Assembly (NCBI RefSeq): GCF_008312885.1 | Contig: NZ_VSSO01000003.1 | Coordinates: 1-64,000 of the forward strand | From: Lolliginicoccus suaedae | Lineage (GTDB): Bacteria; Actinomycetota; Actinomycetes; Mycobacteriales; Mycobacteriaceae | DNA: 64,000 nucleotides | Direction of reading: 5' to 3' | Notes under the pieces: model-generated | Database searches by the model: none | Told to the model about the DNA's origin: nothing | What the model saw: only the letters and a program-made list of their open reading frames with translations | Made by a program: the position numbers and the translations under genes | Shown: in pieces, positions 53,681-63,674 of the stretch | How the letters are laid out: each line of letters begins with the position of its first letter | Position numbering within the stretch: the first letter of the stretch is position 1

Positions 53681-54415
53681 CTACTTTCCGGTTTTGGGTT
53701 TCATGGAAAGCGTATCGATCACGACCTGCGCGACAACCTTCATCGTCGTGCGACGATCCATCGCCGCCCGCTGGATCCAGCGGAACGCCTCCGGCTCCGT
53801 CATGCCGTGCGCCTTCATCAGCGCGCCCTTCGCCCGATCGATGAGCTTGCGCGTCTCCAGCCGATCAGTGAGCTCGCCGACCTCCCGCTCCAGCGCCTTC
53901 AGCTCAGCGAAGCGGCTCGTGGCCAGCTCGATCGCCGGAACCAGATCGCCCTGCGAGAACGGCTTCACCAGGTATGCCATCGCGCCCGCGTCCCGTGCGC
54001 GCTCCACGAGCTCGCGCTGGCTGAAAGCCGTGAGGATGACCACCGGGGAAATACGCTTGGCCGCGATCTCGGATGCGGCATCGATACCATCGCGCACCGG
54101 CATCTTCACATCCATGATGACCAGGTCCGGTGTCAGCTCCTCGGCGAGCTCCACCGCGCGCTGCCCATCACCAGCTTCCCCGACGACGTCGTAGCCCTCC
54201 TCGCGGAGCATCTCGGTCAGATCGAGCCGGATCAGCGTCTCGTCCTCGGCCACGAGCACGCGACGGACCGGCCACGCCGACCTGGAATCCCGCTCCCCGG
54301 CCGCGTCCTTCGCCTCCGACGCGATCACGCCCGCGACGTCCGATGCGCCAGCGCCCCCTGGCGCGCCAATGCCGCCGGACTGATCCTGCAACGCCTCGGA
54401 GTCCTTCATCGACAC
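53681..54415 (-). CDS. pdtaR: ANTAR-domain response regulator PdtaR
   Basis: 244 aa. Receiver domain (VLVAEDETLIRLDLTEML; phospho-Asp in LVIMDVKMPVRDG; Lys in YLVKPF) and a C-terminal ANTAR RNA-binding domain (LIDRAKGALMKAHGMTEPEAF). Counterpart of M. tuberculosis Rv1626, partner of the kinase PdtaS, which acts by binding RNA hairpins. A ~50-residue disordered lead precedes the receiver domain. GTG 54415 is five bases after GAGGGG; ATG 54409 is an alternative. Confidence 0.93.
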   Translation of the reverse strand: MSMKDSEALQDQSGGIGAPGGAGASDVAGVIASEAKDAAGERDSRSAWPVRRVLVAEDETLIRLDLTEMLREEGYDVVGEAGDGQRAVELAEELTPDLVIMDVKMPVRDGIDAASEIAAKRISPVVILTAFSQRELVERARDAGAMAYLVKPFSQGDLVPAIELATSRFAELKALEREVGELTDRLETRKLIDRAKGALMKAHGMTEPEAFRWIQRAAMDRRTTMKVVAQVVIDTLSMKPKTGK

Positions 54416-54633
54416 CCGTTCCCCTCACCTGCCGCCGAACACGTTCTCGACCGCGTTGTATTGTATTCGCTCCGCAGCAAGAGCCTACCGCCGCAGGTGG
54501 CCCGCGCGCGATCATCCAGCGAGCCCCACCACGCCCGATCCCGGGACGTGCGTGCAGCATCCACGTTCGGGTAGCATGCACTGTTGTCCGCGCATCGCTC
54601 GGTTACACGCCCTACAACCGATGCGCGCGGCCC

Positions 54634-54707
54634 GCCCTCGTAGCCCAATTGGCAGAGGCAACGGATTCAAAACCCGTACAGTGTGAGTTCGAGTCTCACC
54701 GAGGGCA
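54634..54707 (+). tRNA. leuX: tRNA-Leu (anticodon CAA)
   Basis: 74-base cloverleaf: acceptor GCCCTCG pairs with CGAGGGC, discriminator A, T-arm GTGAG-TTCGAGT-CTCAC, anticodon loop TTCAAAA giving CAA (reads UUG). The CCA end is not encoded. The anticodon stem has an A-C mismatch at its loop-closing position, and the variable arm is short for a leucine tRNA. Next to pdtaR as leuX is in M. tuberculosis. Its 3' end is the attachment site of the integrated element. Confidence 0.85.
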
Positions 54708-54711
54708 CTTC
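54685..54711 (+). other. attL (27-bp direct repeat in tRNA-Leu 3' end)
   Basis: Repeat begins GAGTTCGAGTCTCACC and ends GGGCACTTC, covering the T-loop, 3' acceptor strand and four bases beyond the tRNA. Identical to 62688-62714. Confidence 0.9.
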
Positions 54712-54770
54712 GCTGTGCATACTGCCTGAGCTGCAGAGTTGATCTCAGCTCCGTATGTCATTCTCCCCTT

Positions 54771-54808
54771 GTGGCCACAATATGCTCGCCCGTGGCCACA
54801 CTTGCGCC
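54771..54808 (+). other. integrase arm-type sites, left end
   Basis: GTGGCCACAA (54771-54780) and CGTGGCCACACTTGCGCC (54791-54808), two copies of a TGGCCA-centred box 20 bases apart just inside attL. The second matches 62572-62589 at all but one base, as expected for arm sites bound by the integrase at both ends. Confidence 0.55.
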
Positions 54809-54899
54809 GCGTCAGCGCCCTCGACGACGCTCTCGCGGGCACTGTGCACAACGCCCGCCTGCTGAGGTCGGCAGACGGGCGTGTCGAGCGGTCCGGAAG

Positions 54900-56114
54900 T
54901 CAGCCCACCTCGGCCCACAACGCGGCAACCTTGCCGCCCTCAGCCCGCTCGTGAGCCTCGGCCACGTCGGCCTCGTCCTCGCCGAACAAGTCCGAGTAGA
55001 TGTCGAGCGTCATGGCCGCCGACTTGTGACCGAGCATCTTGCGCACGTGCATCACGTTGGCGCCGCGAGAGATCGCTAGCGACGCCGCAGTGTGCCGCAA
55101 GCTGTGCGCGGTCACCCGGGGAAAGTACTCGTCAGCGGCCATGCAGCGGGCCACCGCGCCCTCTAGCCACGACCGCTTGCCCGGAGGCTTGGCGTACCCG
55201 CCGACCGCGTTCGGAAACACGATGTCCTCGCGCCCCTTGCCCTAGATCGCCGCCTCGAACATCGGCACGAGGAACTTCGGGAACACGATCGAGCGGCACT
55301 CCCAACCCTTCGGCGTGCCGACGGCGGCCTTGCCGTCCACCACGGTCGTGTTGCGCCCGATGTGCACACGCCGCCGGAGGAGATCGACGTCGCCGACGTG
55401 AAGCCCGGCCAACTCGCCCCACCTGATGCCCACATAGGCCAGGACCAAGACGATCGCGGCCTTGCTCCCCGACTCGCGAGCCAGTGCCCGGACTTGGTCG
55501 GCGTTGAGGTAGCCGCGTTCCAGACGGTCACCGTCCTCGGTGATCGTCGCCGTTGACGCGTGCTCTTTGCGTGGCAGCTCGATCCCCGCACCGGTCTTGG
55601 ACCGCGCCTTTGCGGGATTCTTGGGGATCACCTCGTCGAGGACCGCTCGGTCGAGGATCTGAGAGAGCATGTTGTGATTCCGCAGCACCGAGGTCACCGA
55701 CTGCATCCGGGCCATGTCCGTAACCCACCGCTGCACCTCGCACGCGCGGATCTCGTCCACGCGCGTGGATTCCCACCGAGGCAGCACGTGGTTATCGAGC
55801 GCCTTGCGATAGACGGACAGCGTCGAAGGCTTGATCTTCGGCTTGGCGAGCAGCCAGTCGTGGCCGAGGTGGCCGACCGTGGGAGCAAGCGTCACGACCT
55901 CGGCGGCGGGAGCCTCGGCCTCGGTCGCGAAACCGCGTTTGCCGGTCCGCTTGCCGTTGAGGGTGAACCGGGCGCGCCATTGGAAGTGGCGACCGCGACC
56001 CGGGCCGCGCTTGCGATCTTTCGCGAGATCGGCCTCGAAGGTTCCCGTGAAGGTCTCGCAGTCTTTGCAGACGCGGTAGGCCGAGGCCGACACCTTGATA
56101 ACTGGAGTTGTCAC
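54900..56114 (-). pseudogene. int: tyrosine site-specific integrase, interrupted by an in-frame amber codon
   Basis: 404 codons from GTG 56114, with a single in-frame TAG at 55244-55242. Before it: an N-terminal zinc-ribbon-like part (YRVCKDCETF), AP2-like and SAM-like core-binding domains (PSTLSVYRKALDNHVLPRW) and the first catalytic Arg (YVGIRWGELAGLH). After it, in the same frame: HSLRHTAASLA, MLGHKSAAMTLDIYSDL with the H-x-x-R, H and Tyr residues. Without readthrough the protein loses three of its catalytic residues. The GTG start overlaps the HTH gene stop (GTGA). Closest to attL, as expected for the enzyme that inserted the element. Confidence 0.88.
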
Positions 56115-56314
56115 TTGCTGGCCTCCTGCACCTTGCGAACGATCTTGAAGATCGCGGGCTGACTCACGCCGAGCATGGCAGCGACCTCGCGCTGTGACCG
56201 TCCGGCCGCGATCATCGCGACCACAGCTCGATCGCGACGCTCCTCGGCGCCTTTGACCGCAGCTCGAGCGGCGTCGAGCGCCGCGATCGAGTCGGCCAAC
56301 CCCTCCTCCGTCAC
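56111..56314 (-). CDS. small helix-turn-helix protein, possible excisionase/regulator
   Basis: 67 aa. N-terminal helix of Ala/Arg/Glu (DAARAAVKGAEERRDRAVVAM) and a C-terminal HTH (REVAAMLGVSQPAIFKIV). Overlaps the integrase start by four bases, so it is co-translated with it. Candidates: recombination directionality factor or repressor. GTG start without a good Shine-Dalgarno; purine-rich GGAGGAGGGG lies just after it, so the true start could differ. Confidence 0.65.
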   Translation of the reverse strand: MTEEGLADSIAALDAARAAVKGAEERRDRAVVAMIAAGRSQREVAAMLGVSQPAIFKIVRKVQEASK

Positions 56315-56876
56315 TGTGGGCGGTGGTGCGGGAGCGGCGTCCTCGACAACGTTCTCGAAGTTCGCACCGCGGTGGTGCCTTCCCCGGCTTCACCGTCGAT
56401 GACGTCATGGAGGCCGGGGCGGGTACCCAAGGACCGACTGTGACGGGACTGACTTGCCCGGTGGCTCCAAAAACTGATGTTCGGATCGATCGCTGAAACT
56501 GCGACTGGCGGGTGGGAAGGTTGCCGCAGTTCCGGCCAGGTAGTAGTCCGGTTTCCCGCACGAACTGGCCTGACTCTTGGCCTGCGCGTAGCCCTCCCCA
56601 GGTCGTGTCCGGACCCAGGGAGCGCAGCAGCCTCCCCGAAACCAGGCGACCCGCTCGGGACAAGGGGGTTCGGCCGGCGAAGCGAAATTCTCGGCCATCT
56701 GGGACGTCACCGAGACACCAGTCCAGGCTGAGCGACACGTGTGCGTGCCAGATGCGCGTACGCAAGAACCGCTATCGATCTGCCCAAAAGTGCACGTCAG
56801 GCTAAACTTCTAGGCTCATGGCGGTGTGCATCAGCTCGCACGAGTGGTACTCTACGTGTAGTTTATGCACTCTTCG

Positions 56877-56906
56877 TTGCCTTTTCGTCGCGTCACGTGC
56901 TACTCT
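56877..56906 (+). promoter_or_regulatory. promoter of the cargo operon
   Basis: TTGCCT (56877-56882) and TACTCT (56901-56906) with an 18-base spacer. The -10 lies eight bases before the ATG at 56915. A dyad-like CTACGTGTAG around 56852 just upstream could be a repressor site. Confidence 0.5.
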
Positions 56907-56914
56907 CAGCCAGC

Positions 56915-56983
56915 ATGAAGCCCAACGAACCATCCAGTTCCTTACAACGAAGTACTGCAAGTACTACGACGAAGCATCAATGA
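56915..56983 (+). CDS. 22-aa leader ORF
   Basis: Ser/Thr-rich peptide starting MKPNEPSSSLQRSTAS and ending TKHQ. Starts eight bases after a good -10, so it may be translated from a leaderless mRNA. Its stop overlaps an ATG (ATGA at 56980-56983) that opens a four-codon ORF. No homology; regulatory leader is the most likely role. Confidence 0.4.
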   Translation: MKPNEPSSSLQRSTASTTTKHQ

Positions 56984-57000
56984 AGAGAAGGTGAATAGAG

Positions 57001-57107
57001 ATGATGATCCGAACTCCGTGACCTGGCGGGGTTTACACCCCACCCGACAAACGCGCCCGACACCAGCAAGGAGCGGAAACGTGGCAACGAAGATGCACAG
57101 CCCCTGA
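57001..57107 (+). CDS. two coupled mini-ORFs in the cargo leader
   Basis: A six-codon ORF (MMIRTP, 57001-57021) whose stop overlaps a GTG (57018) by four bases. That GTG opens a 29-codon ORF ending in TKMHSP at 57107. Within it, GTG 57081 has AAGGAG at a good distance and could start its last nine codons. Sequence is not protein-like; translation is only suggested by the overlaps. Confidence 0.3.
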
Positions 57108-57163
57108 TCCGCACTTCCAAGAGAGCGGCCCCGGACGCAGACCGAACAGGAAGGACAACGGGC

Positions 57164-57234
57164 ATGAACCCGACGATAAGAGCACCGTGACACGCGTCAC
57201 ATTCGCTGAAGATGTGCCGAATTGGCGGCAATGA
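57164..57234 (+). CDS. two coupled mini-ORFs immediately before the cargo genes
   Basis: ATG 57164, nine bases after GAAGGA, encodes MNPTIRAP. Its stop overlaps GTG 57187 (GTGA), which encodes MTRVTFAEDVPNWRQ. That stop in turn overlaps ATG 57231 (ATGA), the start of the 175-aa cargo protein. The chain would deliver ribosomes to the cargo start, which has no Shine-Dalgarno of its own. Confidence 0.4.
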
Positions 57235-57758
57235 AGAACGGAGAAGTCACCGTGAGACCAGGACACCGGCAAGCACAAGACATGTTCTTGGAAGCAGGCA
57301 AAGCCTTGGGCCACAGCATTCGTCGGCAGTATTCGACCGAGTTCCCCACCGACGGGGTGTGGCTTCTGAAGGATTCCTTGCTGGGCTGCGACATTCCCGT
57401 TGCGGCCATCGAGGTGATCGTGACCGAAGGCAAGAAGACCCGCCAAGGGTCGATCTTCGTCCTGGAATCCATCTCACCAGCAGTAGGCATCGTCTTGCTG
57501 CAGGACGAAGAGATCCGACGTGGAATGTGGCGAGACGGGGCAACCGACTCGGCCATCGAACGGGAGATCGAGCACCGCGAAGCACATTTGCACCGTTTGG
57601 CCGAAGGGTCCAAACAGCGCATCGAGGTGTGGAAGAAAGCGAATCTGGACTACGTCCACGATCGCGCACTCCGCACGGCTGCCGCCGCACGCCATCGGGC
57701 GGCGTCAGCCACGACAAAGAAAGACAACAACAAGAAAGATTTTCCATGTCTGTCATAA
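57231..57758 (+). CDS. PD-(D/E)XK nuclease-like protein of the cargo operon
   Basis: 175 aa, not assignable to a named family. Residues ~12-95 follow the restriction-endonuclease-like fold: a first helix (AQDMFLEAGKALGH), then TDGVW (D41), then VAAIEVIVTEGKK (E61), GSIFVLESISPAVGIVLLQDEE. D41 and E61 fit the D...E part, but the usual Lys of ExK is Ile (E-V-I); K68/K69 might substitute. The second half is a highly charged helix (EREIEHREAHLHRLAEG) and a Lys-rich tail. ATG coupled to the upstream mini-ORF; its end overlaps the next gene by 13 bases. A TTG three codons upstream is an alternative start. Probable DNA-targeting partner of the DGQHR protein (inference). Confidence 0.6.
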   Translation: MKNGEVTVRPGHRQAQDMFLEAGKALGHSIRRQYSTEFPTDGVWLLKDSLLGCDIPVAAIEVIVTEGKKTRQGSIFVLESISPAVGIVLLQDEEIRRGMWRDGATDSAIEREIEHREAHLHRLAEGSKQRIEVWKKANLDYVHDRALRTAAAARHRAASATTKKDNNKKDFPCLS

Positions 57759-59092
57759 ATTCAGGAACGACGGTGTCCGGGGTCACTCGCATCAAACGGC
57801 CCGGCATCGGATACGTGTACCGGGCGATAATTCCCATCCATGATCTGTACGAGCAACTGCGACGGAGCGTGGTGCGTTACGCACCGCGCTACCAGCGGGG
57901 GTTCAAGTCGAGGTTCGCTGGTGAGATGAAGGATTCGGACTACGACGTCCTGCTTCCCATCACCGACCCGACGCTGCAGATCGATCCCAAGCGGGCGGCA
58001 GCCATGGCGGTCAAATACCTCATGGCCTACAACGACGAAGACGACAAGCATCTGTTCAATGCTGACGTCATCTGGAACGCCCGCATCGAGGGAGCCGGTG
58101 ACCAAGAAGATTCGGTGACGTATGACGAGAAAGGGCAGTTGCTCACGGTTCACTCTGTGATCACCGTTCCGGACTCCGGTCACCGGCACTTCGCCTACTA
58201 CTTGCTGGGCGATTGGTTCCACCACCCAGAAAAGATCCCCAAATCCGTCGACGTCGACGGTGATCTCATCGAGGGGGACCGCATCCGGGATTGGGTCGAG
58301 CGCCTCAACCTCAGGAACAAGAACGAGCATCAGGTGTATTGCGACATCTACTCCATCGATGCAGTGAAGGAAGGTTGGTTGTTCGACGAGTTCAACGCCG
58401 ATTCCAAGAAGCCTTCCGCGGCTGTCGAACTCGACATGAACTGGGCGAAAGACCCGGAGCGACGCTTCATCAAGAAGTTGATGGACGAGAGTTCAATCTT
58501 CGAGCGCGACCAACTGGAGGTGCGATCCACCAGCATCGCCGAACAGTCCCAGAAGCTCACGACGACCTCGACGCTGGTCCGGGCCATCAACCCGTACCGC
58601 AAGAAGCTGTCCGATCTCGAGAAGAACGACGCGGCGTCATACCAGGACCTCGTCGACTTCTTCAACGCGTTCTACGAGGAGTGGTCGAACCACTTCGAGG
58701 TCTTTAAGCCGAACGCCAAGGGACGCATCGAGTCTCGCAAGACCTCGCTGGCCACCGCGAACATCATTTACTTCCCGATGTTCCGGCTGATCATCGAGAT
58801 GTGGGATCGGTTCCGCGGCGAGAAGAAGCGATGGAATGACGAGGAGTCCAAAAAGACGTGGACGAAGGCGATCGCCAAGCTCGCCGGAAACACTACAGCC
58901 AGCGACGGTTGGAAGGGAGCTGTCATGGACCGCGCCAACACCGACTGGCAGGGCAGGATTTTCATCGAAACGTTCGACGCAAAGACCGGCGAACCCAAGG
59001 GATGGTCACTAAGCAGCACGCGGCAAACCCGCGACGCTGCCTACCACTATCTCAATAAGATCATCGGCCTCCCAACCGATGACTCGCAGTAA
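57746..59092 (+). CDS. DGQHR/DndB-like protein of the cargo operon
   Basis: 448 aa. Residues ~20-285 show the DGQHR-domain layout of DndB and relatives: VYRAIIPIHDLYEQL, then LLTVHSVITVPDSGHRHFAY (the D-G-Q-H-R motif as D-S-G-H-R, 143-147), then LFDEFNADSKKPS and SSIFERDQLEVRSTSIAEQ. The C-terminal half carries DLVDFFNAFYEEWSNHF and a Trp/Lys-rich region. DndB regulates DNA phosphorothioation, and DGQHR proteins recur in defence loci. No dnd modification genes are here. Overlaps the 175-aa gene, so the two are one unit. Confidence 0.65.
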   Translation: MSVINSGTTVSGVTRIKRPGIGYVYRAIIPIHDLYEQLRRSVVRYAPRYQRGFKSRFAGEMKDSDYDVLLPITDPTLQIDPKRAAAMAVKYLMAYNDEDDKHLFNADVIWNARIEGAGDQEDSVTYDEKGQLLTVHSVITVPDSGHRHFAYYLLGDWFHHPEKIPKSVDVDGDLIEGDRIRDWVERLNLRNKNEHQVYCDIYSIDAVKEGWLFDEFNADSKKPSAAVELDMNWAKDPERRFIKKLMDESSIFERDQLEVRSTSIAEQSQKLTTTSTLVRAINPYRKKLSDLEKNDAASYQDLVDFFNAFYEEWSNHFEVFKPNAKGRIESRKTSLATANIIYFPMFRLIIEMWDRFRGEKKRWNDEESKKTWTKAIAKLAGNTTASDGWKGAVMDRANTDWQGRIFIETFDAKTGEPKGWSLSSTRQTRDAAYHYLNKIIGLPTDDSQ

Positions 59093-59103
59093 CAGGCAGG
59101 AAC

Positions 59104-59138
59104 CGACTAGCCGCCTCCACCACGGGGGTGGCTAGTCG
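59104..59138 (+). terminator. terminator of the cargo operon
   Basis: CGACTAGCCGCC (59104-59115) pairs with GGTGGCTAGTCG (59127-59138), one imperfect pair, twelve bases after the stop codon of the DGQHR gene. Confidence 0.7.
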
Positions 59139-59925
59139 CGCTTGGAGCGACAATCGCCCTGCGCTATACCCCTGGGCGGGGGGGACACCTTTCGAACCCC
59201 GGTCGGCGCAACACGTGGATCGGCAGGCATAGGACAGGCCAGTTCCACACTGACGCGGCCAAGGGCAGCCACCACGGCCCGATTGTCGGGTCCATCCTTA
59301 GTTCCGGATACGGCCCGCTCGATGTCGTCTACACAGGGTTAGAACGCCCTGGCTGCCCACCTGGCCGTCGCGGCAAGTTCACGCATCGCGCGCCCAACTC
59401 GGCGCGCAGTTCGTCGAACGCAGGTGCGCCCAGGACTAGCCTCGGCGTGATGAAGATGGAGTCCTACGGCGTGCGCTGCTCGAGTGACGATCGCTGGTCA
59501 TTCCGTTTGTCGCTATCCCCGGCGCACACCTGCGGCGCTGCTGGCAGCGCATGCACCGTCGACTCTTAAGGTCGAGGTTGTGCCCAAGAACGACAACCTC
59601 CGGCACCAAGTCGCCGCCAACACATCCCTAGGTGCCCCCCTCGACGATCCGCGCCGACGGCAGGCGCGCGACCGGGCCGCATTACCTCCGATGTATGCGC
59701 GTTCTGCGCAACGCCAAGGGTGATCTGTCCTAGGAATCCGCCAATCTACTTCTGAGCGATCTTGACCGACCGTAGTCGTGCACATGAACATCGCCCAACT
59801 GTCCCTAATACCGCCGAGCTCGCCTTACCCTGACCGACTCCGACTGCGTAGATAGCTCGGCACCGAATCGTCACTCGCCGAGCGCGCTTTTCGCCTCGAT
59901 GGTTGACGCCGGATTGGTGTAGCCC
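59139..59925. other. element region without a recognisable gene
   Basis: About 790 bases between the cargo terminator and the terminase. One plus-strand frame is open from about 59213 to a TAA near 59570, but it lacks an evident start and family likeness, so it may be a decayed phage gene or chance in GC-rich DNA. The other frames are interrupted by stops. Confidence 0.5.
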
Positions 59926-61548
59926 GTGACCGACAACCGCACGCTCGACCGGCTAGCCGAGCTGGCCGCCGGAGATCCTGCGCGCAGGGCGATCGCCGCG
60001 CAAGAGATCGCCCGCGCCGGGTGCTTGCGCGACCACGTGACGCCGGGCGATCTGGCCGTCGCCCTCGACCCTACGAACCGCCAAGTGGGGTGGCTGCGCA
60101 AGCTCGAACTCGGCCTCGTCTGGGTCGCGGAGACCGACGGCGCTCGACTGCTCGTCTCGGCACCAAGCCAGGGGGGTAAGAGCCAGCGCGTGATCTGGTT
60201 TGCGGTGTGGTGCCTCGTTCTCGACCCCGATCGACGGATCGTGATTTTCACCCACAGCGAGGAGCTGGCTCGCGCGCACTCCGAGCGCATCCGGGCGATC
60301 ATCTCGCAGTACGGAACCGGCGCCAAGGACGCGCAAACCGGATCACTCTTGCCGGACCGCCTCGGTATCGGACTCGGCGACAAGACCGCCGCCGGTCGTT
60401 GGACTCTGGCCGGACGTCGAGGTGGCGTGACCGCCCTCGCCGTCAAGTCCGCCCTCCCCGGCATCTCGGCGGATCTACTGATCCTCGACGACCTCCACAG
60501 CGGAGCCGAGTCGGCGGAGTCCCGCACCGGGCAGCGCAAGCTCCGCACCGTGTGGGAGACCGCGATCAGGCAACGTCTCTCCCCCGGCGGTCGTGTGGTG
60601 AGTATCGGCACTCGCTTCGGCGTCGGTGACATTCAGACGTACCTCCTCGGCCAGAAGGCGTGGCAGCGGCTCAACTTCCCGGCGATCGCCGAGCCGGGCC
60701 TCCTCGACTCGCTCAAACGCGAGCCGGGTACGCCATTGGACAGCGCCCGAGGTGTCCGCGACTGGGAGGCGATCAAGTCCACGACACCGAGCTAGACGTG
60801 GCAGACGATGCACCAAGGCGACCCGGTCCCGGCGGAAGGTGGCCTGTTCAAGCGCGCGTGGTTCGACGATCACCAGATCTCGACCACACCTCTTCGGCTG
60901 CGCACGATCGTCGCTGTGGACCCGGCCGACTCCGGCCACGGCGATGAGTCGGGGATCGTCGTCCTCGGGCTCGATCCCGACGGCGTCGTGTACCTCCTCG
61001 CCGACCACAGCGGGCAGATGACGAGCGACCAATCGGCACGCCGAGCCGTCGAGGCTGCCCGCACCCACAAGGCCACCGCGATCGTCGTCGAGGGTTACGC
61101 GACCGGCACGACCTATCAGCGCATCCTGTCTGACGCCTCAATCGCCCTTCGCTGGCCGGTGCGCGTGAAGATGTGGCGCGGCAGAGGTGACGCCTTGCAA
61201 CGGGCCGCCGGTCTGCGCAACGCCGCCGAGATCGGCCGGTTCCGCATCGTCGGCGAGCTGACCACGTTCGAGGCGGCCGCGACGACGTGGCTCTCCGGCA
61301 AACACCAACCGGACCGAGTGGCCGCCGCTGTGGTGGGCTTCGATCATCTGGCCGGACGCCGTGGCGGCCTCGGCTCGATCGCCATACCGTCGTCCGCACC
61401 GATCACCGGACGCCCGTCCCCAATGTCGCCGAACCGCTGGCAAGCGAGCACGGTCGGACCCGACCGAGCCGCAATCGAGGCGGCCAGTGACCCAAGACAG
61501 GCCGCCGGTTACCTCTCTGCGGGAGGCTTCGGCACTTCGGTTCGCTAG
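59926..61548 (+). pseudogene. phage large terminase subunit, interrupted by an in-frame amber codon
   Basis: 540 codons in one frame with a single TAG at 60793-60795. Before it is the packaging ATPase: Walker A-like SAPSQGGKSQR, HSEELARAHSERIR, Walker B LLILDDLHSG and coupling region GTRFGVGDIQTYL. After it, in frame: WQTMHQGDPVPAEGGLFK, then an RNase-H-like nuclease domain with VAVDPADSGHGDESG and VVEGYATGTTYQ. This is the usual order of a headful-type terminase, so the TAG replaces a sense codon in the linker between the domains. GTG start. No small terminase, portal or capsid gene adjoins it. Confidence 0.85.
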
Positions 61549-61564
61549 CCGCGAAGGGCGTCCT

Positions 61565-62491
61565 CTACAGGTCTGAGGCTTCTAGCATCGGAGGCTCCCA
61601 GGTCTCTCCGGTGTACCTGAGTGGATCTGAGGCGACGGCAGCGGCGATTGCGTCGGCGAACCCGAGGCGGTCGGCCACGCACTCACTGAACGATGCTTCG
61701 TTAACGACGTCGAAGTCGAACACGCCTTTGATTGACTCGGTTTCAAGCTGTCGTCGAGCTGTCGTCCACTTCGGCCGCAACACGACAGGCTCCCTTGATG
61801 TCGTGTCCACGACAATGATCTCAGCGCTCGTAACTACAACGGGGAAGATGAGATCGAAGTACACGAACCTCTTTCGCTTACCCACGGACGAGAAGTTCGC
61901 TAATCCCTTGTAGTCGCGTTGTGCTGCGCGGATGGCTTTCGCCAACGGATGCACGAGCGAAGTGAAGATGCCGTTGTTGGTCGCGGACCAGTTGGCACTC
62001 TCGCGTTCAAGCCGAGTTAACTGAGTCGCCCGGAAGTAGTCCTCACCGCATTGCCTTGCGATGTCGGCGAATCCAAGCACCTCCCAGGCCGGTTTCAGCC
62101 TGGAGGACTTGCTGTCAGGAATCTTGAACCGCAATTCCTCGACGGGAATCTTGTGCTGAGTCGGTTGCCGCTTAAATTGCCAAGCGGGGAGTGTCCGACC
62201 GACAGCGACGTAGGGCATGGTCGATTGCTTGCACTCGACGAGGAACTTGGTGGCGACAATCACCTGTGCGTCTTCGTCTCGGAGCACTTGGCGGTACCCG
62301 TAGACATCGAGCTCGCGTGACTTGTTCGGGTCATCGACGTCCTGAAAGGCCCAACCGAGACGGGGATGGCAATCCGCATCGGCGAGGACATGCGCAACTG
62401 TCTGTTCCAGAAGCCAGCCCGCGTTCGTGAGCGCAGTCAGCAGGTCTGGGTCAGAGGGCGAGTTCCCGTCGTGATCGGAGTCTGTCGGCAC
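61565..62491 (-). CDS. PD-(D/E)XK restriction-endonuclease-like protein
   Basis: 308 aa. Residues 20-95 are nuclease-like: LTNAGWLLEQTVAHVL (helix), GWAFQDVDDPNKSRELDVYGY (D62) and TKFLVECKQS (E86-C-K88), a complete D...ExK site. The remainder (KPAWEVLGFADIARQCGED ... FVYFDLIFPVVVTSAEIIVVD) has no recognised domain. GTG start; possibly leaderless. Convergent with the terminase and next to attR, a common site for phage-borne defence genes. No methyltransferase accompanies it, so it may recognise modified or non-self DNA, or act by another trigger. Confidence 0.7.
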   Translation of the reverse strand: MPTDSDHDGNSPSDPDLLTALTNAGWLLEQTVAHVLADADCHPRLGWAFQDVDDPNKSRELDVYGYRQVLRDEDAQVIVATKFLVECKQSTMPYVAVGRTLPAWQFKRQPTQHKIPVEELRFKIPDSKSSRLKPAWEVLGFADIARQCGEDYFRATQLTRLERESANWSATNNGIFTSLVHPLAKAIRAAQRDYKGLANFSSVGKRKRFVYFDLIFPVVVTSAEIIVVDTTSREPVVLRPKWTTARRQLETESIKGVFDFDVVNEASFSECVADRLGFADAIAAAVASDPLRYTGETWEPPMLEASDL

Positions 62492-62539
62492 GGTTCGATC
62501 TTGTCAGGCTCACACCCTTCGACGGGTATCGCCTCGCGG

Positions 62540-62589
62540 CGTGGCCACACAGTGGCCCAAACCGGCCACATCGTGGCCACATTTGCGCC
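62540..62589 (+). other. integrase arm-type sites, right end
   Basis: CGTGGCCACACAGTGGCC, CCGGCCACAT and CGTGGCCACATTTGCGCC, a cluster of TGGCCA boxes about 100 bases inside attR. The last (62572-62589) matches the left site at 54791-54808 with one difference. Confidence 0.55.
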
Positions 62590-62687
62590 TATGAACCAGG
62601 GATAGAGCCTATGAAAACCGAATTACATCGATACACCTTTTCACAGGTAAAAGGCAGTTTCCGAGCCGCTGACCTGGGGTGCCGCTA

Positions 62688-62714
62688 GAGTTCGAGTCTC
62701 ACCGAGGGCACTTC
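62688..62714 (+). other. attR (27-bp direct repeat)
   Basis: Exact copy of 54685-54711, i.e. the 3' part of tRNA-Leu plus four bases, without the rest of a tRNA. Marks the right end of the element. Confidence 0.9.
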
Positions 62715-62810
62715 CTGCCGGGCCCGCCCTGGACCCATTCCGCGCGGCCCGGTCCCACTGCGGCCCGGTCTTTGTACGGCCCGGTCCCCAACGGGCAAGC
62801 CCCTCGTGAC

Positions 62811-63569
62811 CTAGCCCCGCCCCGGTCCCCGCTCCTGGTCCGAGAGCAGCTCCGCGAGCTCCGCGATCCGATCCTCCAGCTTGCCGATGTGCTCGTCGAG
62901 GGCGTTCACCTGCGCGCGCGTCGCTGCTTCCTGTGTCTCATCGTTCTCGGCGACCCTATTGACGATCACCGACGCGATGGTGCCCGTGATGACACCGATG
63001 ATGCTGATGCCGCCGAACATCAGCAGCACCGCAATGATCCGACCCACTGTCGTGACGAGCACGATGTCGCCGTAGCCCACGGTCGTGACCGTGACGATGG
63101 ACCACCACACAGCATCGCCGAAGTTCGTGATCTGCGTGCCCGCGGCGTTGCGCTCGGCGTCGAGCACCGCGAGCGATGCCATGTAGATCAGCAGCGTCGC
63201 CGAGGCCGCCGCATAGATGCCCACCCGGCCATGCAGCGTGCGGCCCACCGAGGCATGGAGCTTCTGCACGACGATAACCACACGCAGCAGCCGCAACGGC
63301 CGCAGCATCGGCAGCGCCACGATCGCGAGCTCCAGCGGGTGGGTCAGGAACCATCGCAGCTTCCGCTCCGCCGCGACGAAGCGCACGAGGTAGTCGATAG
63401 CGAAGACCACCCATACGCCCACCATGATCAGTTCGGTGGCCGCGCGCACTCCCGGCTCCGGCCGCAGCACCGAGACGCTGTAGGCGACGATGTAGACGAT
63501 CGCGGCGCCCACCATCGGCCACTCGGTCGGAGGCAGCACGGATCGTGGATCGGGAATGCGGCGGATCAT
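62811..63569 (-). CDS. voltage-gated-type potassium channel
   Basis: 252 aa. Six-span channel subunit: the selectivity filter TTVGYGD follows a pore helix (FGDAVWWSIVTV), an S4-like arginine series (RPLRLLRVVIVVQKL) precedes it, and a C-terminal coiled coil (NALDEHIGKLEDRIAELAELL) may tetramerise it. ATG 63569; the in-frame start at 63659 overlaps no homologous sequence. First chromosomal gene after attR. Confidence 0.88.
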   Translation of the reverse strand: MIRRIPDPRSVLPPTEWPMVGAAIVYIVAYSVSVLRPEPGVRAATELIMVGVWVVFAIDYLVRFVAAERKLRWFLTHPLELAIVALPMLRPLRLLRVVIVVQKLHASVGRTLHGRVGIYAAASATLLIYMASLAVLDAERNAAGTQITNFGDAVWWSIVTVTTVGYGDIVLVTTVGRIIAVLLMFGGISIIGVITGTIASVIVNRVAENDETQEAATRAQVNALDEHIGKLEDRIAELAELLSDQERGPGRG

Positions 63570-63674
63570 CCAGGAATGGTGCCACGGCGAGGGTTCGATG
63601 GCGAAAAAGTCCTGGCGCTTTGACCGTTCCAGCGCGCTGGGACCATTGCCTGGCTGCAACCATTGGCGGGCGCG

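Follow-up and report, generated by a model that had tools for sequence, protein, structure and literature searches.

A divergent, YopQ-like DndB-family protein and its overlapping partner gene on a small decaying integrative element of Lolliginicoccus suaedae

We analysed a stretch of 64,000 nucleotides from Lolliginicoccus suaedae (positions 1 to 64,000 of contig NZ_VSSO01000003.1, assembly GCF_008312885.1; hereafter the window) and found a small integrative element that carries an overlapping pair of genes, P1 and P2. P2 belongs to the DndB/DGQHR family and, in profile comparisons, matches the YopQ proteins of phages better than the other groups of this family. We tentatively favour the reading, to which we would give somewhat less than an even chance, that P1-P2 is an element-maintenance or lysogeny-regulator operon, with P2 as an NTP-responsive, DNA-associated regulator and P1 as its dedicated partner. 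A pair of this kind is undescribed in the listed titles and abstract openings of the DGQHR and DndB literature. The features discussed are listed in Table 1.

Table 1. Features of the element and its integration site, in window coordinates.
Feature	Coordinates	Strand	Basis
tRNA-Leu (anticodon CAA), integration target	54634..54708	+	ARAGORN
attL, 27-bp perfect direct repeat, over the tRNA 3' end	54685..54711	+	Repeat search, empty sites
Tyrosine integrase, candidate GTG start 56114, in-frame TAG 55242-55244	54897..56114	-	Pfam (N-terminal piece only)
67-aa helix-turn-helix (HTH) protein	56111..56314	-	HTH_3, E 1.2e-5, above cut-off; codon score 0.38
P1, 175 aa from ATG 57231, 168 aa from GTG 57252	57231..57758	+	ORF listing, translation
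P2, 448 aa, DndB/DGQHR-family, YopQ-like	57746..59092	+	Pfam, PHROG, profile comparison
15-bp hairpin after the P2 stop	59104..59138	+	RNA fold
Phage terminase large subunit, in-frame TAG 60793-60795	59926..61548	+	Pfam, phage records
P3, 308 aa, PD-(D/E)XK-like (SRELDVYGYRQ ... VECKQS)	61565..62491	-	Homologue alignment
attR, 27-bp perfect direct repeat	62688..62714	+	Repeat search, flank matches

The pair lies on an element of 8.03 kb (54685-62714) inserted in the tRNA-Leu(CAA) gene. A DNA search with 54560-57200 showed an empty tRNA-Leu(CAA) site in all three other genomes of the genus that were searched, and in each of them homology at the tRNA site stops at the repeat. Past the repeat, this query gave shorter matches elsewhere to the tRNA part only and a 101-base match of 72% in genome G777. 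The left and right window flanks join at one place in all three congeners, and at one such place (L036) the end of the left flank and the start of the right flank fall inside the same 27 bases. We set the boundaries of the element accordingly, because the flanks meet at the 27-bp repeat in the congeners. The repeats and the empty sites bear out the mobile-element setting in which a sequence-only reading of this DNA had placed the pair. The tRNA-Leu(CAA) gene was the sole tRNA gene detected in the window.

The element encodes the HTH protein and the tyrosine integrase on the minus strand, P1-P2 and the large terminase on the plus strand, and P3 on the minus strand. P1-P2 faces the HTH gene and the integrase over a 0.9-kb gap, and the HTH gene overlaps the candidate start of the integrase by 4 nt. 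The first piece of the terminase found matches in 1928 of 50,697 phage records, the best being a Rhodococcus phage. We conclude that this is a small, decaying, phage-derived integrative element. Both broken phage genes, the integrase and the terminase, are stopped by TAG specifically, in DNA that is GC-rich.

ORF listing and translation confirmed two overlapping genes of 175 and 448 aa, as had been read from the letters, with an overlap of 13 nt on the same strand. The left end of the pair had been put at 57164, which starts an 8-codon frame only, and P1 begins at 57231 or 57252; the GTG at 57252, which is preceded by GGAG, appears the more likely start. We used 19 gene-like ORFs of the window to train a codon score, and the same genes served as controls. 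The P1 frame had the best score of the six frames, at 0.14-0.18 per codon, which falls short of every one of the 19 control genes (minimum 0.22); in wrong frames, the controls reached at best -0.43 on the plus strand and 0.32 on the minus strand. P2 scored 0.53 against a control mean of 0.50. Beyond the P2 stop, the RNA fold of 59090-59150 had an energy of -33.9 kcal/mol (z -5.9, equalled by 0 of 200 shuffles), and the hairpin at this place is likely to be a transcription terminator without a T run. It is absent from the list returned by our terminator scan, which demands a T run. A promoter scan found no sigma-70-like promoter at 56300-59300.

P2 matched the Pfam DndB family (PF14072) with an E value of 2.3e-8 and 34.0 bits, above the gathering cut-off of 29.1. 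The score against the DGQHR domain model TIGR03187 was 24.7 bits (E 1.7e-5), below the NCBIfam cut-off of 58.85, and YopQ of SPbeta also falls below this cut-off with 39.5 bits. TIGR03233 gave 14.8 bits, far below its cut-off of 328, and the PADLOC DndB model matched weakly (E 0.0021). A QR pair, a pentapeptide and an FxxxN motif are given as hallmarks of the DGQHR domain in the available portion of PMC4619093. P2 carries QR, DSGHR and FxxxN; its pentapeptide, D-S-G-H-R, is not an exact DGQHR, and D, H and R are retained. The ordered trio QR...D..HR...FxxxN arose in 2 of 5000 shuffles, and the IFERD and FNADSKK blocks are also present in P2. The DGQHR/DndB-like layout claimed earlier for P2 was therefore upheld by the family match and the motif trio, and the sequence identifies P2 as a genuine, very divergent DndB/DGQHR-family protein. 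Membership of P2 in a Dnd or Dpd system was considered and rejected, given the NCBIfam scores below cut-off, the weak PADLOC match and the profile scores described below. A PDB sequence search found no solved relative, with a single match at E 0.91 for query A3.

The first lead to YopQ was a tblastn match (E 2) to ORF65 of Psychrobacillus phage Perkons, a phrog_5732 protein encoded between an integrase and an MrpR protein. The phrog_5732 family matches P2 at E 9.1e-5 over residues 241-318 only, and P2 and Perkons YopQ share 22% identity over 258 columns. We compared P2 with the profiles of seven DndB-family groups using hhalign. YopQ scored best (50.6, 269 columns, E 4.9e-6), followed by DndB at 38.0 and the remaining groups at 28.6, 23.8, 22.4, 16.6 and 15.9, while shuffled P2 (60 shuffles each) scored at most 26.8 against the YopQ profile and at most 24.2 against the DndB profile. 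Upstream of the DxxHR motif, P2 and five of six YopQ proteins carry a [WF]NA block; no such block precedes the motif in the 37 proteins of the other groups, one of which has WNA elsewhere. The groups were drawn from 54 loci: 35 of these gave the 37 rows beside YopQ, with one duplicate among the 37, L015 entered the comparison as L032p, and a further 18 were omitted as unfit for the groups or the motif filter. Among these 18 remaining family loci, the [WF]NA block occurs in L005 only, and the best score against P2 was 24.3. Since the 37 comparison proteins were chosen by a script that demanded DGQHR or DGQQR, the departure of P2 from DGQHR is not independent evidence, and the [WF]NA block is the sole unselected shared trait because the pentapeptide was a selection criterion.

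One-to-one hhalign comparisons of P2 gave 34.2 for L032p, 32.8 for Perkons YopQ and 32.4 for a DndB, and the other five YopQ proteins scored from 28.0 down to 14.8 with DndB proteins interspersed. These scores mix YopQ and DndB, so that the preference for YopQ rests on the profile and is weakened. A tree of 45 rows united P2, L032p and YopQ (97/95), with a long-branch warning. When L032p and four other long rows were removed, P2 moved to the base of DndB and its neighbours (84/81); when P2 and the same four rows were removed, L032p stayed with YopQ (98/95). In an AU test, the tree with P2 constrained to YopQ gave p 0.33, so that the clade was neither rejected nor demonstrated. The tree position of P2 is fragile, and we label the protein YopQ-like rather than a proven YopQ, because the one-to-one scores fail to separate YopQ from DndB and the placement in the tree shifts when L032p and the other long rows are left out. 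Taken together, the comparisons suggest that the likeness of P2 to YopQ equals or exceeds that to DndB and is far greater than that to DpdB, and that its nearest relative is perhaps YopQ from phage dormancy-control operons.

YopQ relatives were found in 34 phage records, including yopQ of SPBc2, all of which are named for Bacillus, Geobacillus, Staphylococcus, Mammaliicoccus or Psychrobacillus. The genes on either side of yopQ are of the same kind in SPbeta, phi3T, Geobacillus E3 and Perkons: on one side an integrase-like gene, which is YopP in SPbeta, and on the other the gene for the repressor MrpR/YopR or an equivalent. An operon between a YopP-type integrase and MrpR is not the setting of P2, whose neighbours are P1 and the downstream terminase, and the two settings were not found to be linked by a gene for MrpR, for a second integrase-like protein or for a P1-like protein. 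In the available portions of the literature, yopQ is described as a member of the yopM-yopR lysogeny operon encoding a ParB_N_Srx domain (PMC8612738) and is placed among the core genes of SPbeta-like phages that are most likely active in lysogeny (PMC10516654); these portions of the two articles state no function for YopQ.

We then turned to P1, for which a PD-(D/E)XK-like pattern had been claimed and which had been cast as a small nuclease-like partner of P2. The residues of the pattern, D41 and E61-V62-I63, are present. However, P1 contains no strict (D/E)xK match, the catalytic lysine being missing from D41...E61-V-I, and 74 of 2000 shuffled P1 sequences (3.7%) show the pattern. Searches with HMMs found no family for P1: there was no convincing match in Pfam, PHROGs, NCBIfam or PADLOC, where no model matched it, and the best match (E 0.074) was to a PHROG of unknown function. 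A PDB sequence search gave no match, and hhalign scored P1 against P3 at 12.6. With no (D/E)xK, no family and a pattern this common in shuffles, P1 was rejected on sequence as a PD-(D/E)XK nuclease, and the claim of a nuclease-like partner has no sequence support. P1 may still have a PD-(D/E)XK fold, because the core sequences of this fold diverge.

No homologue of P1 was found in the phages (three matches at an E limit of 10, the best at E 0.5), in the plasmids or in the IMG/VR scans. At E up to 0.01, P1 had matches in three of 297 other genomes of the order. Two of these were identified as a peptide-chain release factor and an apolipoprotein N-acyltransferase, and were for this reason taken as chance; the third, L045, is a frame with a TAG. 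A second match in the genome of the window itself (L046), which has no Pfam family and resembles a wrong-frame translation, was discarded. The 1231 frames of ten loci, six of them around YopQ genes, included no counterpart of P1.

Tblastn searches with P2 at E 1e-3 brought up no homologue in 50,697 phages, where an E limit of 10 gave three matches, all at E of about 2, or in 72,556 plasmids. The IMG/VR scans and the GTDB contigs yielded none either, in scans that demand exact matches of 8 or 9 residues and would miss distant copies. The same was true of two partly overlapping samples, one of 396 other genomes from the order and one of 395 from the phylum; the phylum sample, apparently the same draw, was searched again with alignment A2. 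The congeners G349 and G368 gave no match to P2, and the L032 protein, a P2 relative from the same order discussed below, has no homologue in IMG/VR or the phages. Of 200 genomes of the order, 18 have PF14072 itself, and of 296 genomes of the class, 27 do; both counts include the genome of the window. We surveyed pairing at 29 other PF14072 loci of the order, using an adjacent-ORF heuristic and flanks of about 1.5 kb, and saw no P1-like neighbour by eye; 25 further loci (L051-L075) were searched with P1 and P2 only. The survey and the homology searches gave no sign of conserved pairing: neither a homologue of P1, nor a close one of P2, nor another copy of the pair appeared in the collections and samples that we searched. 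Among the loci surveyed, L021 has a DndE protein as neighbour of its DGQHR protein. At L020, a GIY-YIG domain gene (L020:1068-1463 (+)) lies directly upstream of tandem DGQHR proteins, so that a nuclease-domain gene beside a DGQHR protein occurs in another form. The genome of L020 also has a canonical DndB about 10 kb away.

A better candidate for a nuclease on the element, as judged by sequence, is P3, and the sequence-only reading is corrected on this point. Searches of Pfam, PHROG, NCBIfam and PADLOC with E values up to 1 gave no family for P3, and a PDB sequence search gave no match. P3 aligns at 34% identity, over 85% of its length, with an Arthrobacter plasmid protein whose gene shares a 17-kb stretch with genes for a DNA methyltransferase and a helicase. 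The two proteins have in common SRE(L/I)DV(Y/H)GYRQ...ECKQS, which we take to be a recognisable PD-(D/E)XK core; by itself, the strict PD-(D/E)XK pattern arises in 241 of 2000 shuffled P3 sequences. A Mycolicibacterium plasmid homologue of P3 is without the SRE...ECKQS part.

How might the pair act? In the regulator reading, P1 and P2 would be co-transcribed as a two-gene operon, and P2, with the ParB/Srx fold expected from its family, would be, or would once have been, an NTP-responsive, DNA-associated regulator that binds both ligands. It would act from the region where the HTH-integrase genes and P1-P2 diverge and help to keep the element integrated and silent, and P1 would be a DNA-binding subunit or a P2-controlled effector working jointly with it. 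The sources, as far as they are available, offer several precedents for DndB: the Salmonella protein binds palindromes in the promoter of its own operon (PMC4507180), a DndB-like protein binds ATP and GTP (PMC12704722), and a further proposal makes DndB a nucleotide-degrading effector or nuclease (PMC10853773). The profile and PHROG matches to YopQ, the [WF]NA block, the lysogeny setting of yopQ, the HTH and integrase genes opposite the pair and the hairpin behind P2 speak for the regulator reading. The interruption of both integrase and terminase counts against it, since such an element may no longer need control, as do the mixed one-to-one scores, the shifting tree position and the low identity to Perkons YopQ.

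Defence was the other role suggested from the letters. P2 would then be an NTP-dependent sensor of DNA or its modification, as in GmrSD, SspE and DndI, and would gate a cleaving or toxic P1 as antiphage cargo. The presence of P3 on the same element fits this view, as do the GIY-YIG gene directly upstream at the DGQHR locus L020 and the GC content of the pair (57.7% against 67.5% for the window). In the parts of the published work at hand, the nucleases of DndI and SspE are gated by NTPases with a DGQQR domain, and when the DGQQR motif of DndI carries R87A, ATPase activity is lost and phage resistance falls (PMC11662687); the DGQQR and DGQHR motifs are related by sequence, and GmrS and GmrD may be separate genes (PMC4619093). 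Against this, the nuclease motif of P1 is no better than that of about 4% of shuffles, P1 has neither a family nor a PADLOC model, the DndB model is weak on P2, and a second copy of the pair was not found in the collections searched. We consider a defence role rather unlikely; a regulatory or maintenance role is somewhat better supported. The earlier proposal of an antiphage or element-maintenance module thus gains some support for maintenance from the similarity of P2 to YopQ, and for its antiphage half nothing positive was found apart from family association and the nuclease-like gene P3.

It is also improbable, in our estimate, that a decaying prophage remnant carries the pair as passenger DNA without present function. 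Such a view would account for the in-frame TAG in each of the integrase and terminase genes and for an element of 8 kb with no capsid gene among its proteins searched against Pfam or PHROGs. The P1 and P2 frames, however, are intact despite decay elsewhere in the element, and the codon use of P2 is gene-like, that of P1 somewhat less so.

Dnd and Dpd genes had been reported as lacking. For dpd this holds locally only, and dndC, dndD and dndE are absent from the eight proteins of 53684-63659 searched against Pfam, but the same genome encodes dpdC, two dpdB, dpdA, dpdD and dpdJ (PADLOC; L033, G000:C3 about 303000-315200), so that the host cell may modify its DNA. A PDC-S37-like protein lies a few kb from this cluster. 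That P2 acts on the host Dpd system (7-deazaguanine DNA modification) as a decoy or modulator shielding the element from restriction is very unlikely: the two DpdB proteins belong to the Pfam family of P2, but P2 scores 16.6 and 23.8 against the DpdB profiles, inside the shuffle range measured on the YopQ and DndB profiles, the cluster lies outside the element at a distance of about 245 kb, and no link between it and P2 was found.

A divergent YopQ relative with a single overlapping partner on an 8-kb element would be a small test system, in which the function of the DGQHR family could be tested outside DNA phosphorothioation. Among the core genes of SPbeta-like phages, yopQ stands beside that of the master repressor, and our finding is of moderate interest in that it may connect a rare protein with an uncharacterised one from the core set of these phages. 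A bolder and doubtful extension is that YopQ-like DGQHR proteins are cross-phylum, NTP-switch regulators of prophage and satellite dormancy, of which P1-P2 would be an actinobacterial-type version with an undescribed small partner replacing MrpR as the output subunit.

Among known systems, GmrSD, SspE and DndI (DUF262 plus HNH) resemble the pair in their DGQ(Q/H)R-type ParB/Srx domain and, for GmrSD, in the possibility of separate subunits; in Pfam, however, P2 has no DUF262 match and P1 no DUF1524/HNH match. DndB shares PF14072, the FxxxN and QR motifs and the C-terminal region with P2 and is its second-best profile, and differs in that dndCDE are lacking among the element proteins searched and that P2 has DSGHR in place of DGQHR. 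The PF14072 protein at L032:4604-5863(-) carries PDSHHRH, close to the PDSGHRH of P2, gave the best one-to-one score with it and lies near serine recombinase and Rep genes. Its own partner is downstream, overlapping and of 156 aa, with HEISH (HEXXH-like, by eye), and profile comparison of the L032 protein favours DndB (63.9) over YopQ (39.9), whereas the trees put it with YopQ; the pair L032:4131-5863(-) is possibly another element-control pair. For YopQ, a clear pairwise match with P2 is confined to the Perkons protein, and P2 has the new upstream partner P1 instead of an MrpR neighbour. In common with P2, the YopQ proteins have PF14072 (four of six above the cut-off, two just below), the [WF]NA block, a temperate-phage setting, a DxxHR motif without Q (DGFHR or DGYHR in all six) and a length of 427-460 aa, which brackets the 448 aa of P2.
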